Shown here in pieces: positions 6,928-20,044 of a stretch of 20,352 bases of DNA; the stretch's first letter is position 1, and every line of letters begins with the position of its first letter. Both the position numbers and the translations under genes were made by a program. This DNA comes from a virus. The stretch covers positions 1 through 20,352 of IMG/VR virus record IMGVR_UViG_3300042868_004830, one strand, 5' to 3'. The notes beneath the pieces are model-generated. The model searched no databases, had not been told where the DNA came from, and saw only the letters and a list, made by a program, of their open reading frames with translations.

Positions 6928-7529
6928 CGATCACCAACGGCTACATCACGCTCGCCGGCTTGAAGACCTACCTCAAAATAGACGACAGCGTCGAAGACAC
7001 ACTGCTAGAACAAATAATCGAGTCCGCATCGCGCAGCATTGACCGCATCGCTAACCGCCGCTTCTATTTAGACAGCACAGCAACCGCCCGCACGTACCGT
7101 CCAATAGGCAACCTTCGAGTCATAACAGACGACATCGGAAGCACCACCGGTCTAATACTCAAAACAGATCCAAACAGCACCGGCGTTTACCAAACAACAT
7201 TCACGTTGAACACCGACTACATAGTCGAACCAACAACAGCGCTGGCAAAAGGCCGCCCGATCAACTACCTAACCATCGTCGGCTCCACAGCGCTCTCTTT
7301 ACCGGTGAACTATTGGCCACAAGTAGAAGTGACAGCCAAATGGGGCTGGCCTTCCGTACCAGACGACATCGAGCAGGCCACCTACATCCTGAGCGCAGAC
7401 CTATACAAACGAAAAGACTCGATCGGCGGCGTACTAGGCATTTCAGAACTAGGAGCAATACGCATGAGCCCGCTCGGACGCGACATAGCCGCAATGGTAC
7501 GCGCCTATAAACGCGAGTTCTTCGCATGA
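6924..7529 (+). CDS. Head-tail connector (HK97 gp6-like adaptor)
   Basis: This 201-residue protein should sit under the portal and join head to tail. The N-terminal part (ITLAGLKTYLKIDDSVEDTL, then LEQIIESASRSIDRIANRRF) is the helical signature of the gp6/Phage_connect family. The middle part is beta-rich, and WPQVEVTAKWGWPSVPDDIEQA followed by a helix is the classic C-terminal segment of actinophage connectors. The start codon is GTG at 6924, overlapping the previous stop by four bases. Position between capsid and tail genes agrees. Confidence 0.88.
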   Translation: MTITNGYITLAGLKTYLKIDDSVEDTLLEQIIESASRSIDRIANRRFYLDSTATARTYRPIGNLRVITDDIGSTTGLILKTDPNSTGVYQTTFTLNTDYIVEPTTALAKGRPINYLTIVGSTALSLPVNYWPQVEVTAKWGWPSVPDDIEQATYILSADLYKRKDSIGGVLGISELGAIRMSPLGRDIAAMVRAYKREFFA

Positions 7530-7924
7530 CGCCATCAGGCGTACGCACCGCACTAACAGCAGCGATCGACACCATCGCAGGGCTGCGCTGCTTTGAGTAC
7601 GTACCAGACAGCATCGCACCACCGGCCGCAATGATAGAACCGCTAGAAATTACCTACGGCATCGCAATGCAAAACGGCCTCGACATGTACCAGGCATACA
7701 TTCTGGTGATAGTAGGACGCATGGCAGACCGCAGTGCACAAGACAGGCTCGACGCATACGTGACTAGCAGCGGAGCATCCAGCATCAAAGCAAAAGTTGA
7801 ATCCGATCCAACGCTCGGCGGAGCCTGCAGCACACTACAAGTCACGGACGCGAACCCGCGAACTGTTACAGTTAGCGGTGTAGAAATGCTCGCATACCGG
7901 TTCGGAGTAGAAATTTATGGCTAG
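7526..7924 (+). CDS. Tail-terminator-like / neck protein
   Basis: This 132-residue protein has a helix (GVRTALTAAIDTIAGL), then a YVPDSIAPPAAMIEP strand segment, YQAYILVIVGRMADRSAQDR, and a short C-terminal beta region ending in YRFGVEIYG. That pattern is familiar from actinophage proteins encoded between the connector and the tail tube and annotated as tail terminator or head-tail connector. The role would be to cap the finished tail tube and bind the neck; which neck ring it forms cannot be decided from sequence alone. It overlaps its neighbours by four and eight bases. Confidence 0.75.
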   Translation: MTPSGVRTALTAAIDTIAGLRCFEYVPDSIAPPAAMIEPLEITYGIAMQNGLDMYQAYILVIVGRMADRSAQDRLDAYVTSSGASSIKAKVESDPTLGGACSTLQVTDANPRTVTVSGVEMLAYRFGVEIYG

Positions 7925-8075
7925 TTACAAAATCGCCGTGGACAATTCCACACTAGGCACACAAGGCACAACAATTACAGAAGAAGACATCGCAGCAGCG
8001 CCAGCAGATCTAGAACTGCTACTCGCCGCAGGCATTGTCGAACCCGCAAACAAAACAACAAAAGAAAAGGACTAG
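7917..8075 (+). CDS. Small acidic protein before tail tube
   Basis: This 52-residue frame begins MASYKIAVDNSTLG and continues TTITEEDIAAAPADLELLLA to VEPANKTTKEKD. It starts eight bases before the end of the preceding gene and stops two bases before the first tail-tube ATG, so it fills the gap in the same way as the other small genes here. The TTITEEDI..APADLELLLAAGI stretch resembles short phage proteins found just before tail tube genes. Function is unknown. Gap-free packing is the main evidence. Confidence 0.72.
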   Translation: MASYKIAVDNSTLGTQGTTITEEDIAAAPADLELLLAAGIVEPANKTTKEKD

Positions 8076-8077
8076 AA

Positions 8078-8476
8078 ATGGCTGTCTTCGTTTTCACCGA
8101 CGCATACCTCACCATCAACACCGTCGACCTTTCATCGTACGTAACAAGCATCACGCTCAATTACGAAAAAGACTCCGTCGAAGTAACCGCAATGGGCGCA
8201 ACCGGCCACGTCATGACCGGCGGCCTCCAGAACTTGTCAGTCGCGATTGAATTCAACAACGACCAAGCAACATCAAAAGTCTTAGAGACGCTTTACAGCG
8301 CAACAGGATCCGGAGCAAACACGCTAGTCATCAAGAACGCGACAACAGGAAGCCCACTGCCAGTCTTCACGATTTCTAATTCATTCCTAGCAGCCTCTAC
8401 ACCGGTGGCCGGCGCAGTAGGAGAACTAGCAAAGCAGTCGGTGACCTTCACCGGCGGATCGATTGTGAAGTCCTAA
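8078..8476 (+). CDS. Major tail (tube) protein, copy 1
   Basis: This 132-residue beta-rich protein should polymerise into the tail tube around the tape measure. It opens MAVFVFT, contains SSYVTSITLNYEKD and TGGLQNLSVAIEFNNDQA, and closes with the AASTPVAGAVGELAKQS and FTGGS strands. This is the layout of small tail tube proteins of actinophages (VTSVTL.Y..D..E.TAMG). The next gene is a paralogue with about 60% identity by eye, including the same first seven residues. It follows a TAG stop by two bases. Small size for the family fits the compact genome. Confidence 0.85.
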   Translation: MAVFVFTDAYLTINTVDLSSYVTSITLNYEKDSVEVTAMGATGHVMTGGLQNLSVAIEFNNDQATSKVLETLYSATGSGANTLVIKNATTGSPLPVFTISNSFLAASTPVAGAVGELAKQSVTFTGGSIVKS

Positions 8477-8477
8477 C

Positions 8478-8897
8478 ATGGCCGTCTTTGTTTTCACTAA
8501 CGCCTCCGTGACAATGGCACCAACAACCGGCGGAACAGCGGTCAACCTTTCTTCATACGTAACGAGCGTGACGCTCAATTACGAAAAAGACGCAATCGAA
8601 ACAACTGCGATGGGCGCAACCGGCCACCAGTTCACCGGCGGCCTTCAAAACCTCTCGTTGACGATCGAATTGAACAACGACCAAGCAGCGAGCTCCGTCC
8701 TTGAAACGCTCTGGTCTAACGTAGGAACAGGCACAACGCAAGTAATCGTCTCAAACACCACAACCGCCGGAGAACAAAAATTCACGTGCGTGAACATGTT
8801 CCTAGCGGCCTCCACACCGGTGGCCGGCGCAGTAGGCGAACTAAGCAAACAGTCCATCACGCTCACTGGTGGATCCGTAACAAAGGGAACCATCTAA
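8478..8897 (+). CDS. Major tail (tube) protein, copy 2
   Basis: This 139-residue protein is a tandem paralogue of the preceding one, starting one base after its stop. It has a six-residue insertion after the first strand (MAPTTGGTAV), otherwise the same strand order: SSYVTSVTLNYEKD, TAMGATGHQFTGGLQNLS, NNDQAASSVLETL, and AASTPVAGAVGELSKQS. Both copies keep every conserved segment, so neither looks like a pseudogene. The pair could make a mixed tube, or one could be the tube and the other an end ring or decorated form. The DNA identity near the 3' ends is much higher than elsewhere. Confidence 0.85.
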   Translation: MAVFVFTNASVTMAPTTGGTAVNLSSYVTSVTLNYEKDAIETTAMGATGHQFTGGLQNLSLTIELNNDQAASSVLETLWSNVGTGTTQVIVSNTTTAGEQKFTCVNMFLAASTPVAGAVGELSKQSITLTGGSVTKGTI

Positions 8898-8901
8898 CAC
8901 A

Positions 8902-9186
8902 ATGGCACTACACCTGACCGTCAAGCACAAAGACGGCACAGAGACAAAAACACAAGTCTCTGCAGCCACCGAAGTCGCGTTCGAGGCGCACTTCAACAAA
9001 GCCTGGTCCGAAGCATTTACAGAAGAACACCCGCGCAGCACGTACATCTACTACGCAGCGTGGCATTCAATAACAGAAGACAAAAACACAGCGCAACCAT
9101 TCGAGCAATGGATCAAAACACTCGCGTCGTTTGAGGTCGACACAGACCCCCCGCAACATTCAGACCAGGAAGCACAACCTGGTTAG
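8902..9186 (+). CDS. Tail assembly chaperone G
   Basis: This 94-residue product is the unshifted form of the tail assembly chaperone that holds the tape measure protein before tube polymerisation. Position between tail tube and tape measure is the standard one. The sequence has the HFNKAWSEAFTEEHPRSTYI and YYAAWHSI segments, and FEQWIKTLASFEVD leads into the frameshift site. An AAAGGGA site lies upstream at about 8881-8887. A fraction of ribosomes should slip at the C6 run near 9147 to make the longer G-T protein. Confidence 0.85.
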   Translation: MALHLTVKHKDGTETKTQVSAATEVAFEAHFNKAWSEAFTEEHPRSTYIYYAAWHSITEDKNTAQPFEQWIKTLASFEVDTDPPQHSDQEAQPG

Positions 9187-9344
9187 TTGCGGCACTAGCA
9201 GTCAAAACAGGCATTAGCCCGCTAGACCTGCTACGTACACCACCAGAAATCCTCGCCGCGATGGTAGAAGAAGTCTGGCCAACAACGCACATCAAAAAAG
9301 GAGACGAAGCATGGCTAGCACTGGCGTCTATGGCTACCGAGTAA
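8902..9344 (+). CDS. Tail assembly chaperone G-T (-1 frameshift fusion)
   Basis: Reading zero frame to residue 84 (DPP) and then -1 frame from 9153 gives a 147-residue protein. The added part is ATFRPGSTTWLVAALAVKTG, then ISPLDLLRTPPEILAAMVEE and a Trp-containing tail, ending at TAA 9342-9344. The shifted part has the usual T-domain pattern of actinophages (RPG..TWLV, GISP..LL, L..MV) and no start codon of its own at its left edge. It overlaps the next gene by 34 bases. Known biology: this fusion is conserved through long-tailed phages. The site itself is seen in the sequence; the frameshift is inferred. Confidence 0.85.
9147..9153 (+). other. Slippery site for -1 frameshift
   Basis: The heptamer C_CCC_CCG (zero-frame codons CCC and CCG) fits the X_XXY_YYZ rule. 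After slipping one base back both tRNAs read CCC. The zero frame then runs to TAG at 9184-9186, while the -1 frame stays open to 9344 and encodes the T domain. No strong hairpin was found right downstream by eye. Confidence 0.82.
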
Positions 9345-9772: not shown

Positions 9773-11776
9773 ATGGCCGCAAAATCAATCTCCATTCCAG
9801 TTACAGGAAATACAGCACCACTACGCAAAGCGCTAACAGCGGCATCCGTTGAACTGAACACCTTCGGCAGCAAAGCAACAGCAGCAGCAAAGACAGCATC
9901 CGTCGCAATGCTCGCCGTAGGCGCAGCAGGGACAGCGGTCGCATTGCGCTGGACCAAAATGGCGGAACTAGCAGCGATAGCCGATCAACGCATCGATGCC
10001 GTCGCTCAAACGATGGGATTGTTCGGTGCGCAAACAACAGCAACAACTAAACGCATCCAGGCCTACGCAGACGCCCTAGAACGCGAAACAGGCGTCACCG
10101 CAGAAACAATCAAAGCAGCACAAGCCAAACTGCTTACGTTCAGACAACTAGCCCTCACCGCAGACGTAGCAGGCGGAGCATTCGACAGGGCAACCCAGGC
10201 AGCCGTCGACATGGCCGCCGCCGGCTTTGGCAGCGCAGAACAAAACGCCGTCCAACTTGGCAAGGCCCTAGAAGACCCCATCAAAGGCGTGAACAGCCTG
10301 CGCCGCTCCGGTATTACATTCACCGACAGCGAAAAAGCAAAACTAGCGGTCCTCGTACAAACAAACAGAATCCACGACGCACAACGCGTCATCCTGACCG
10401 CCATCGAAACACAAGTCAAAGGAACAGCCGCCGCCACAGCCGTCTCCACCATGAGAATGAAAAACGGCTTCGGAGAAGTAACAGACGCGATCGGCACGAA
10501 GCTCTTACCAATAATGAACGGCGTCGCAGACGCGCTGGTGGCCATAGGCGAAAAAGCAACGCTAGAAGGCCTCGGTGCAGCATTCAGCGAACTAGGAAAC
10601 CAGGCCGACATTGCCCTTAAAAAAATGGACAAGGGCATGAACGACTTCTACCACACAACAGAAGGAACCGTTAGCGGTTGGGGCCGTTTCAGAAACGCAG
10701 CAACACGAGCCACCAACGCCGGCATCGCCACGCTCAACGGAGCCGCACGTGTAATGAACGTATTTGTTGACAAAGACGTGCAACTTCTACAACACATCGA
10801 CACGCTAAGCGCCTACACAGACGCCCAAAAAGAAACCATCGCAAACGATAAGCAGATGATTAGCAACCAGGAAGTGCTGAGGAAATACAACGAAGAACAA
10901 ATCAACATCCTGAAAAAGCAAGCAAAAGAAAAAGAAGCAGCAGACGCCGCCGCAGCAAAAGCATCCGAGAAAGCCGCCGCAGCAGCCAAAGACGCTGCAA
11001 CAAAAGAGAAAACCAAGTTCACAGCACTAACAGAAAACCTCAAAACAGCAAAAGAAGCCATTCAGGACTACGTCCAATCCATAAGCACCGCGATCGGCCG
11101 CGAAGTTTCCCTCGGTAGCGCGTTCAGTACGGCAGCAAACGAACAGACAGACGCACAAAGCAAAGTCAACGACGCGCTCCAAGAACGCCGCCAGGCATAC
11201 CAGGACCTTCAACAAGCAAACGCATCCGGCGACCAGGACGCCTACGCAGACGCCCTCGATCGCGTAGCAACGGCAGAAAAAAGCGTTACAGACGCACAAG
11301 CAGTCAAGCCCCGCAACTACACCGCCATCTTTCAGGAACAGATAGCAGCAGCGAAAACTTTCGCTGGACACATGAAAACGCTCATCGCCGGCGGCAACAT
11401 GAGCAAAGCCGCGATCGCTCAACTCCTAGAACTAGGACCGGTAGCGGGCGCACAAGTAGCAAAAGACCTAATAGCCGGCACCGGCGGTTTTACAGCAGCA
11501 TCCCTCTCAGCAGACCTAGCATCAGTCGCGGAAGCAGGAACCGCAGCAGGAATGGCGACTCCAGGCTTCACAGCAGCAATGAACGCAACCGCCGTCAACG
11601 GCGCTGGCAGCGGCAACTTCTACATCACGATCGAAAGCGGCATTGGCGACCCTACTGAGATTGCTAAAACAGTAACCAGCGTTCTCCAGACGTACGGCGC
11701 GACCACTAACGGCATCCCTGTCAAAGTAAAGACACCAAAAGCAGCGCCAGTCAAAACAGGCCGCCGGAGAAAATAA
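9773..11776 (+). CDS. Tape measure protein
   Basis: The longest protein here (667 residues) sets tail length and is ejected with the DNA. After a short N-terminus there is a hydrophobic helix (AMLAVGAAGTAVAL, 45-58). Residues about 95-230 match the TP901/PhageMin tape-measure core (AKLLTFRQLALTADVAGGAF, QLGKALEDPIKGVNSLRRSG). A Lys/Ala coiled-coil stretch follows near 370-415 and a glycine-rich C-terminus ending KTGRRRK. At the usual 0.15 nm per residue the tail would be about 100 nm. The stop overlaps the next gene as TAATG. No peptidase or transglycosylase domain is visible. Confidence 0.93.
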   Translation: MAAKSISIPVTGNTAPLRKALTAASVELNTFGSKATAAAKTASVAMLAVGAAGTAVALRWTKMAELAAIADQRIDAVAQTMGLFGAQTTATTKRIQAYADALERETGVTAETIKAAQAKLLTFRQLALTADVAGGAFDRATQAAVDMAAAGFGSAEQNAVQLGKALEDPIKGVNSLRRSGITFTDSEKAKLAVLVQTNRIHDAQRVILTAIETQVKGTAAATAVSTMRMKNGFGEVTDAIGTKLLPIMNGVADALVAIGEKATLEGLGAAFSELGNQADIALKKMDKGMNDFYHTTEGTVSGWGRFRNAATRATNAGIATLNGAARVMNVFVDKDVQLLQHIDTLSAYTDAQKETIANDKQMISNQEVLRKYNEEQINILKKQAKEKEAADAAAAKASEKAAAAAKDAATKEKTKFTALTENLKTAKEAIQDYVQSISTAIGREVSLGSAFSTAANEQTDAQSKVNDALQERRQAYQDLQQANASGDQDAYADALDRVATAEKSVTDAQAVKPRNYTAIFQEQIAAAKTFAGHMKTLIAGGNMSKAAIAQLLELGPVAGAQVAKDLIAGTGGFTAASLSADLASVAEAGTAAGMATPGFTAAMNATAVNGAGSGNFYITIESGIGDPTEIAKTVTSVLQTYGATTNGIPVKVKTPKAAPVKTGRRRK

Positions 11777-14140: not shown

Positions 14141-14274
14141 ACAACGAAAACAAACCAACAATCATCATCCACGACGGTCTAACTGGCGAAACCATTATCC
14201 GAGAACTAACAGAAGAAGAACTAGCGCAACAACCGCGCGAACCTTCAATCTTTGAAACATTGTCTAACGAATGA
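14137..14274 (+). CDS. Small acidic protein after the fibre gene
   Basis: This 45-residue frame reads MNNENKPTIIIHDGLTGETI and then IRELTEEELAQQP. It overlaps both neighbours by four bases (ATGA on each side), a strong sign of a translated gene. The pattern TGE..IRELTEEELAQ is familiar from short phage proteins following tail fibre genes. Those may help fibre assembly or be virion parts, but this is unproven. Confidence 0.75.
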   Translation: MNNENKPTIIIHDGLTGETIIRELTEEELAQQPREPSIFETLSNE

Positions 14275-15482
14275 TGCGCCGGCTCCTGCCCCTAGTAGGA
14301 GTCGTAATCGCACTAACCGCAACAGCACAAAAAGCAACTGCGAACAACGACGGCTTGACCGTAACCGGCTACGCCATAACAGACGTCCCGCCGATCAAAA
14401 ACGCGACGACGTACCAGCAATGCGGAACAACGACCGCGGCCTTCATAAACACCGTGTACGAATACGATCCAATAGGCGATTGCGGAACCGACATGTTCAT
14501 GGCGCACTACACCGGTACCATAAACATCCCCGCGCACAACACGATCGAGTTCTGGCTCGCATCCGACGACGGCGGCACCATAAAAATTGGCACAGATGAA
14601 TGGGGCAACTGGTACGACCAGGGATGCACCGCAACGGAAAGCGGACCACTTCAAATCGCGCCAGGCCCGCAGCAGCTCGATGCCTGGTTCTACGAGAACG
14701 GCGGCGGCACGTGTTTCATGTTGGCCTGGAACATAGACGGCCAAGGCTGGGAAATAATCCAGCCGGACGCGTTCACTCGTCCAACACCCGCCACAACCAC
14801 GACGACCTCCACCACCACCACAACCACAAGCAGCACGTCGACAACGACCACCACAACCACCACGACCACCGCACCACCCGCAACGACGACGCCGGCGACC
14901 ACCTACCCCGCAACAACGACAGCCCCAACAACAACGACGATCAACGTCCCGCCTTCCACCGCTGCCAACACAACCAGCACACAGCCCCCTGCACCGCAGC
15001 AGACAACCACAACAACAACAACATCGACCACGACACTAGCGCCACCCCCTGTCACCAATAACACCATCGACGAAGCCGTTCTGGATTTGCTAACAACCGC
15101 GCAAGACATCCCACAAGCAGAAGTGCAAAAAGCGATCACCGCCATCATTGACGCCGGCGTCAACGACGCAGAAGCGCAACAACTAGCAACGACACCAGCG
15201 GTCCTGGAAGCAGCCACAACAGAACAAGCCGCCGCGATTTTCGAGGCCATCAATGAAGACAACCTCACCATTGAACAAGCGACCGCGATCGCGGAAGCAG
15301 TACAAAACGCGCCCGACAACGTACGTCAAGAATTCGAAGCGGCCATTAACATTTTTAGCGGCAAGACCGACAACTACACCGCCGTCGGTTCACGCGTACC
15401 AGTTCGCACAAGACGCATCATCATCATCACAACCGCTCTCCTGGTAGCAGTACCAGCACCACAACGAAAGACCACCACATGA
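14271..15482 (+). CDS. Secreted, membrane-anchored PA14-like surface protein
   Basis: This 403-residue protein has a signal peptide at 1-24 (Arg-Arg, LLPLVGVVIAL, cut after ATA). A beta domain at about 30-165 resembles PA14 (HYTGTINIPAHNTIEFWLAS, DDGGTIKIGTDEW, WFYENGGG). It has four cysteines (51, 71, 119, 148) that could form disulfides outside the cell. A Thr/Pro linker runs from about 172 to 260. A helical region (261-360) and a C-terminal membrane helix (IIIITTALLVAVPA after RTRR) follow, with a short basic tail. This is the plan of a host cell-surface protein, not of a virion part. It starts at ATGATG overlapping the previous stop, and the stop overlaps the next ATG. A surface-masking or superinfection role is possible but unproven. 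Confidence 0.85.
   Translation: MMRRLLPLVGVVIALTATAQKATANNDGLTVTGYAITDVPPIKNATTYQQCGTTTAAFINTVYEYDPIGDCGTDMFMAHYTGTINIPAHNTIEFWLASDDGGTIKIGTDEWGNWYDQGCTATESGPLQIAPGPQQLDAWFYENGGGTCFMLAWNIDGQGWEIIQPDAFTRPTPATTTTTSTTTTTTSSTSTTTTTTTTTTAPPATTTPATTYPATTTAPTTTTINVPPSTAANTTSTQPPAPQQTTTTTTTSTTTLAPPPVTNNTIDEAVLDLLTTAQDIPQAEVQKAITAIIDAGVNDAEAQQLATTPAVLEAATTEQAAAIFEAINEDNLTIEQATAIAEAVQNAPDNVRQEFEAAINIFSGKTDNYTAVGSRVPVRTRRIIIITTALLVAVPAPQRKTTT
14784..15050 (+). repeat. Thr-codon (ACN) low-complexity tract
   Basis: This section encodes the Thr/Pro/Ala linker of the PA14-like protein with runs of up to ten Thr codons. ACC, ACA and ACG are mixed, so the DNA is not a perfect repeat and slippage should be limited. 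It is coding sequence, not a CRISPR or satellite array. Long Thr linkers are common in exported actinobacterial proteins. Confidence 0.8.
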
Positions 15483-19311: not shown

Positions 19312-19661
19312 ACCAACAGCCCTCACTATTTGACGCCCTGCCCATCGACACCACGATCAACCCGATTAGGCTGGCAAGAACCACAGACCCAGACACCTCA
19401 CACAAGGCCGCAGAGAACGCATCGCGCCGCGGCCCCTCACAAAGGAAACGCATATGGGAAGCACTCCAGCGTCTAGGCGACGCTACCGATTACGAACTAT
19501 CCATCGAAGCGGGCATCCTGCGCAGCAGCGCAGCGAAACGACGCCAAGAACTACAAGACCTGGGACACGTAATGCCGACAAAGGACCGCAGGAAAACAGA
19601 CACAGGATCGCTCGCAGTAGTTTGGCGCTGTTCATATGCCTCGCCATACCAGGGCTCCTAA
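19308..19661 (+). CDS. Winged-helix protein with TSH motif and clamp-like peptide
   Basis: This 117-residue protein contains LARTTDPDTSHKAAE (22-36), a signature repeatedly found in actinophage DNA-binding proteins. A winged helix follows: SQRKRIWEALQRLGDATDYE (44-63), AGILRSSAAKRRQELQDLGH (68-87), and a wing to LAVVWR. The very N-terminus reads MNQQPSLFDA; QPSLF at residues 4-8 fits the pentapeptide by which replication proteins bind the DnaN sliding clamp. It may join phage DNA to the host replisome or regulate a promoter. Another reading frame overlaps its second half. Confidence 0.75.
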   Translation: MNQQPSLFDALPIDTTINPIRLARTTDPDTSHKAAENASRRGPSQRKRIWEALQRLGDATDYELSIEAGILRSSAAKRRQELQDLGHVMPTKDRRKTDTGSLAVVWRCSYASPYQGS

Positions 19662-20044
19662 TGGCAACGCCAGTACAAGCAGGCAGCATCTACCACCGCA
19701 ACTATCACGGCGTACTTCCAGACGCCTACTATGACGGCCTCGCCCAATGTGAAACAGGCGGCAACTGGAACCACAGCACCAAGTCCTACACCGGCGGACT
19801 AGGCATCTACCGCGGCACGTTCAAACGCTGGAGCAACCACACAAGCGCAAAAGGAATGACACCACGACAACAAGTCAAAGTCGCAGACGCGATCGCGTTC
19901 AAAGGCCACACAGAGCAAGACGGCACACACGTATGGAGAGTAGGTCCTTGGGGCTGGGGCTGCCTACGCAACAGCCCACGACTTCAGCAGTTCATCTGCC
20001 GATCGGCGCACCCACTAGTCCGCAAGTGGAAACGCAACTGCTAA
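19454..20044 (+). CDS. Rpf/transglycosylase-like wall hydrolase with signal peptide
   Basis: From ATG 19454 (AAAGGA upstream) the protein has 196 residues. A basic N-terminus leads to a signal-like segment (RIARSSLALFICLAIPGLL at 51-69, then ATPVQA with a cut after residue 76). A domain follows with AYYDGLAQCETGGNWN (91-106), in which Glu100 takes the place of the catalytic Glu of resuscitation-promoting-factor lysozyme-like domains. TGGLGIYRGTFKRW and VGPWGWGCLR complete it. It would cleave peptidoglycan glycan strands. The start is uncertain: 19661 (TAATG after the previous stop) gives a 127-residue form without a hydrophobic signal, and TTG at 19622 is a third choice. The longer form overlaps the HTH gene by 208 bases. 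Confidence 0.78.
   Translation: MGSTPASRRRYRLRTIHRSGHPAQQRSETTPRTTRPGTRNADKGPQENRHRIARSSLALFICLAIPGLLMATPVQAGSIYHRNYHGVLPDAYYDGLAQCETGGNWNHSTKSYTGGLGIYRGTFKRWSNHTSAKGMTPRQQVKVADAIAFKGHTEQDGTHVWRVGPWGWGCLRNSPRLQQFICRSAHPLVRKWKRNC

Follow-up and report, generated by a model that had tools for sequence, protein, structure and literature searches.

Our analysis of 20,352 nt of DNA from a small, uncultured siphophage (IMG/VR virus record IMGVR_UViG_3300042868_004830, positions 1 to 20,352, hereafter the window) points to an old tandem duplication that gave rise to two tail-tube subunits, A and B, which on balance probably both enter the same tail tube. This reading is based on comparisons of related genes and on predicted structures. 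The usual view of a tail tube is that of a stack built from a single protein.

Profile and structure searches supported the assignment of A and B as siphophage major tail (tube) proteins. When compared with the PHROG profiles, gene A matched phrog_4574 (major tail protein) with an E value of 5e-11 and gene B with an E value of 5e-15, and both also matched the major tail protein profiles phrog_9522 and phrog_10528. The AlphaFold2 models, which are of moderate confidence (pLDDT 77.6 for A and 73.1 for B, lowest in the L2 loop at about 60), show a tail-tube beta-sandwich with a flanking helix and a long beta2-beta3 loop. Their best solved matches were tail tubes and related injection tubes, with Z scores of 10-10.8 to solved tail tubes; the top PDB match of A was the tube of siphophage R4C (8gtb, Z 10.8), and B matched tail tubes at Z about 10. 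The identity that had been proposed for both genes from the letters alone was therefore corroborated by two kinds of search. In addition, the pair lies between the tail terminator and the chaperone and tape measure genes, as siphophage tube genes do (Table 1). The putative chaperone gene at 8902..9186 had no match among the PHROG profiles, and it comes after the tube gene or the pair in relatives. At the stop of this gene (CCTGGTTAG), there is probably a -1 frameshift into a 53-codon open frame (8902-9344 for the gene with its extension), although this slip site differs from the classic XXXYYYZ heptamer.

Table 1. Features of the tube locus in the window. Loop boundaries and functional assignments are predictions.
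Feature	Position	Strand	Remarks
Tail terminator gene, upstream	7526..7924	+	phrog_17840, E 1.5e-29
Shine-Dalgarno-like AAAGGA	8066..8071	+	6 nt upstream of the A start
Tube gene A (copy 1, ancestral-like)	8078..8476	+	132 aa, tail-tube fold
A hinge (beta2-beta3) loop, residues 37-49	8186..8224	+	predicted ring-stacking, from AlphaFold2 secondary structure; 11/13 identical to B
A L1 region, residues 88-95	8339..8362	+	2/8 identical to B; diverged middle
A L2 loop, residues 105-117	8390..8428	+	AASTPVAGAVGEL; 13/13 identical to B; block seen in the sequence-only reading
Junction TAA-C-ATG	8474..8480	+	B start 1 nt past A stop; no good Shine-Dalgarno site
Tube gene B (copy 2)	8478..8897	+	tail-tube fold, 139 aa; L1 region and C-terminus derived, 6-residue insert
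B-only insert APTTGG, residues 14-19	8517..8534	+	invariant in every copy-2 gene of the window's clade
B hinge (beta2-beta3) loop, residues 43-55	8604..8642	+	by identity to A and AlphaFold2 model
B L2 loop, residues 110-122	8805..8843	+	by identity to A
Tail assembly chaperone (G-like) gene	8902..9186	+	assigned from its position and from its conservation in single-copy loci
Probable -1 frameshift extension of chaperone (T-like part)	9183..9344	+	open frame LVAALAVKTGISPLDLLRTPPEIL..., conserved in relatives
Tape measure protein	9773..11776	+	667 aa; phrog_27166, E 7.6e-16

The A and B ORFs are separated by a single base. An earlier sequence-only reading of this DNA had described them as neighbouring genes encoding proteins that are about 60% identical and share their first seven residues; in our alignment 87 of 131 residues (66%) and 268 of 393 bases (68%) were identical, with a third-position identity of 0.53, and both proteins start with MAVFVFT. 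Divergence was uneven along the genes, since nucleotide identity in 15-codon windows ranged from 0.44 to 0.84. It was low (0.44-0.52) in the gene middle, 8270-8345, and high (0.78-0.84) at 8120-8210 and 8375-8405. Thus, the patchiness noted before, a diverged middle and a near-identical 3' block, was recovered, except that there are two blocks of high identity and not the 3' one alone. The 3' block, said to contain about three differences, is real, but its position in A has to be shifted by two bases: 8384-8427 differs from 8799-8842 (offset 415) at 3 of 44 bases (GCA/GCG, TCT/TCC and GGA/GGC, counted by eye), whereas with the A copy placed at 8386-8429, as originally given, 35 of the 44 bases mismatch.

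Relatives were gathered by scans of IMG/VR, which provided a first set that was de-duplicated and a second set centred on another clade. Both one-gene and two-gene loci were found: two short tube genes lay side by side in 32 loci of the first set and one in 55, and among the fully flanked loci of the second set (n=70) there were two tube genes in 37 and one in 33. As the chaperone gene directly follows the tube gene in nearly all single-copy loci, a hidden, diverged second tube gene in these relatives could be rejected. In the tube tree, the copy-2 genes of the window's clade, from 13 related viral contigs, form a single branch with 100/100 support, which excludes a recent duplication in each genome separately. 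The copy-2 genes of another group of two-copy phages branch separately (99/93), and the two-gene design therefore has at least two origins. Comparison of orthologs of both copies gave dN values of 0.01-0.11 and dS values of 0.18-1.54, indicating purifying selection; together with the distinct copy-2 clade, this means that the duplication is old. In agreement with this, we found no decay of the second gene in relatives; the B reading frame is intact and its dN is far lower than its dS, although a single tube gene is present in one close relative (L080, described below). The hallmarks of copy 2, namely the APTTGG insert, the L1 region and the GTI/GTV C-terminus, are constant across all copy-2 genes of the clade, and this constancy and the low dN indicate that B is kept as a distinct protein.

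In a third arrangement, present in 37 fully flanked loci, a short tube gene comes immediately after one for a long tube protein (about 240 aa, phrog_9522). A long tube gene without a short partner was seen once, at a contig end. Long and short partners are only about 35% identical to each other. The long form bears an extra C-terminal region of about 110 aa, and the long+short pairs (L146-L194) come from dozens of viral contigs, with one more on a Nitrosospira MAG contig (L142). Three of the loci (L188 2477-3742, L189 1205-2485 and L190 1104-2369) have three ORFs in a row where the others have two; there, the long protein seems to be split into a tube-domain gene and a gene for the C-terminal region, ahead of the short tube gene.

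The number of tube genes has changed even among close relatives of the window. In a tree of neighbouring genes, the single-copy virus L080 falls inside the window's two-copy group, and this tree requires the copy number to have switched between one and two at least three times, implying that loss or cassette exchange happened more than once. The neighbouring DNA of L080 is 71-92% identical to the window, whereas its single tube gene (8001-8399) shares only 65-68% identity with A along most of the gene, and B is missing altogether. Tube genes therefore seem to move between relatives as a cassette, and at least one background can do without B. L080 thus has a cassette with one tube gene where the tail module is otherwise similar, with recombination at the tube locus, and the two viruses offer a natural comparison for the role of the second subunit. 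By sequence, the closest cultured relatives are Pontimonas phage phiPsal1 and Rhodococcus phages REQ1/Shagrat, which have a similar gene order but differ from the window in having one tube gene each. Both A and B match the phiPsal1 major tail protein at 29-33%, and other family members match the Rhodococcus phages at 32-41%. A tblastn search of cultured phages with A, B, long, short and clade-2 tube proteins as queries returned one-copy relatives or nothing, and no pair. Likewise, we found no siphophage with two tandem tube genes in the literature, a weak negative as it covers open-access papers only.

The gene conversion suspected in the sequence-only reading was borne out by a genome-specific similarity at silent sites. 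Of the 85 codons for residues shared by A and B of the window, 53 were identical, compared with 35.8 (sd 3.5) expected from shuffling synonymous codons within the gene (P<0.001). Across the clade, silent identity between A and B of the same genome was 0.538 against 0.412 expected, whereas between lineages it was 0.405 against 0.391. A second control, with codon usage taken from other genes, gave the same picture (0.538 against 0.442 within genomes, 0.436 against 0.427 across), and the two controls led us to reject codon usage as the cause. As the excess is found within genomes and is absent across lineages, we conclude that patchy conversion continues to make parts of A and B alike within a genome. 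The excess is strong at alignment columns 18-54 and around 102-114, and absent at the 5' end. A run-length test on the window pair alone was not significant (longest silent run, P=0.67), and the signal in the window is therefore the total silent excess taken with the comparison across genomes. Residue 111 in the L2 loop (PVA/PVN) is Ala in both copies of four genomes and Asn in both copies of seven, and changed in both copies within the window's lineage. In the second clade, both short+short groups had this within-genome excess as well, with cross-lineage values there also somewhat above expectation. Gene conversion between the copies, as had been proposed, is thus upheld as a continuing, patchy process; a recent duplication is not supported, given the 100/100 copy-2 clade with its own insert and C-terminus.

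Regarding expression, AAAGGA is found 6-7 nt upstream of every copy-1 gene in the window's clade. In contrast to this, B of the window has no good Shine-Dalgarno site and starts one base past the stop of A, and the other copy-2 starts that could be read in the clade (L054 copy 2 was left out) lie 1-2 nt after the stop, also lacking a good site. In the other clade, second copies often have an AAGGAG-like site of their own. For the window, this arrangement suggests coupled translation, and it would be natural for B to be translated by coupling to A and to be no more abundant than A. The one-base junction also argues for co-expression of the two genes and against a switch between subunits, and we noticed no element that could act as a switch.

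Further evidence comes from the loops that are expected to connect successive rings. In T5, SPP1, lambda and YSD1, rings contact each other and the tube grows by way of the beta2-beta3 loop (review PMC8718954); in JBD30, the loop is inserted between two loops of the following ring, L1 and L2 (PMC11445458). In A and B, we presumptively named L1 and L2 from the order of the secondary-structure elements. The blocks shared by A and B would correspond to these ring-stacking loops, which suggests that part of the patchiness reflects selection and not exchange. We then examined 27 long+short pairs, in which the partners are diverged enough (about 35% identical) that shared history cannot hide a matching pattern, and permuted the long/short partnering 5000 times. 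True partners matched in the hinge loop at 0.764 compared with 0.537 after permutation, in the pre-hinge strand at 0.580 compared with 0.409, and in L2 at 0.550 compared with 0.456, and in none of these three regions did any of the 5000 permutations reach the observed value. The excess was small in the N-strand (0.345 against 0.307), and in these 27 pairs matching was at chance in L1 (0.118 observed, 0.122 permuted), the post-hinge strand and helix (0.263, 0.255) and the C-strand (0.206, 0.194). The loop co-variation persisted when only pairs less than 50% alike were kept (n=14). Silent excess in the hinge and pre-hinge regions of these pairs was about 0.09-0.18, close to the gene-wide excess. 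This co-variation was measured in long+short pairs, and in the window's own clade the within-genome matching is mostly at silent sites. As the stacking loops of long and short paralogs track each other, the paralogs most likely stack on each other, which strengthens a two-subunit tube as a plausible reading for A and B.

According to this reading, rings of A and of B, or mixed rings, would stack through their common beta2-beta3 and L2 loops, and these loops would then have to stay compatible, being kept matched by gene conversion and selection. B would be read by coupled translation from the stop codon of A and made alongside it, in equal or lower amount. Through its diverged L1 region and N-terminal insert, B would expose another surface than A or be placed elsewhere along the tube. 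If true, a helical polymer could change its subunit composition without losing assembly, by means of matched stacking loops, and loop co-variation would offer a test, from sequence alone, of which tube paralogs share a tube.

Conversion and loop conservation are also compatible with B forming only one special ring, and it could be, although we consider it unlikely, that B is a specialised end ring, with A making up the tube apart from a single ring or a few rings of B next to the terminator or at the tip. In contractile injection systems, extra tube paralogs sit at the baseplate. A precedent is the PVC baseplate, which has, next to the main tube chain, another chain with the tube fold (9qgl_5A), and the gp48/gp54 rings of T4 start the tube (review PMC8718954). 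The matching hinge and L2 loops are what stacking on A would need, and a B that is translationally coupled without a Shine-Dalgarno site may be a minor product, but second copies in clade 2 often have good sites. Moreover, the single-copy relatives, with the chaperone directly after the tube gene, need no such ring, and copies that are 66% identical and undergo conversion are closer than would be expected of end-ring paralogs. Quite improbable, in our view, is that A and B are interchangeable genes that raise supply, or are nearly neutral duplicates, with conversion keeping them alike and their differences meaning little. Conversion itself, the close relative L080 that manages without B and the polymorphic presence of the pair across the tree would all fit such redundancy; however, the three copy-2 hallmarks are constant despite large silent divergence, a gene that has no ribosome site and depends on coupling is ill suited to increasing dose, and long and short partners have been retained together in spite of their low identity. 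Finally, a tube built from either A or B, for example to suit different hosts or to escape defences that sense tail tubes, such as DSR2, of which tube proteins are described as known triggers (PMC10981675, PMC11087589), would agree with the differing L1 region and insert and with the exchange of tube cassettes between relatives (L080), but is very unlikely given that the one-base spacing implies co-expression and that either/or use would not require the stacking loops to co-vary in related pairs.

A shared tube made of A and B would have partial counterparts, as tubes with two subunit forms are already known. The SPP1 tail tube contains gp17.1 and gp17.1* at 3:1, the latter being a frameshift product with an FN3 domain, and this extended form is dispensable (PMC8718954). 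As in SPP1, one siphophage tube would consist of two forms of the major tail protein. In contrast to SPP1, where one gene and a frameshift give identical tube domains, the tube domains in the window are diverged and encoded by two genes, with no domain added: B is not a frameshift form with a C-terminal domain but has an ORF and a start of its own. Among relatives, the long+short pairs resemble an SPP1 tube encoded by two genes. According to its PDB entries (9vne, 9vnd), the Hcp2-Hcp3 heterohexamer of the Bacteroides fragilis T6SS places two tube-fold paralogs in one ring, and it was among the top structural matches of both the A and the B model (Z 10.7). However, it is a secretion tube unrelated in sequence to A and B (8-10% identity), and we claim no homologous pairing. 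PVC and the Bacteroidales BIS clusters with two tube proteins resemble A/B in having at least two tube-fold paralogs per gene cluster (PMC7394362), but they are contractile and their paralogs are not close tandem copies with conversion. In T5 pb6, the tube domain is also duplicated (PMC8718954), but the domains are fused in one chain that forms trimeric rings, whereas here there are two separate chains. More broadly, and with less confidence than for the window itself, it is possible that a widespread type of siphophage tube, from phages not yet cultured, is a patterned two-subunit polymer of tandem paralogs that evolved several times (short+short twice, and long+short), with inter-ring loops co-evolving in a lock-and-key manner while the rest diverges.

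Some other genes of the window were noted as well. At the start of the record (91-1389), a ParB-like N-terminal region is fused to a DNA methylase (PF01555). No Pfam match was obtained for the 403-aa protein at 14271-15482, which is unusual for so small a phage and combines a long Thr-rich stretch with a hydrophobic C-terminus. Near the end of the record (19454-20044), a protein contains a transglycosylase-like domain (PF06737), which suggests an actinobacterial host.
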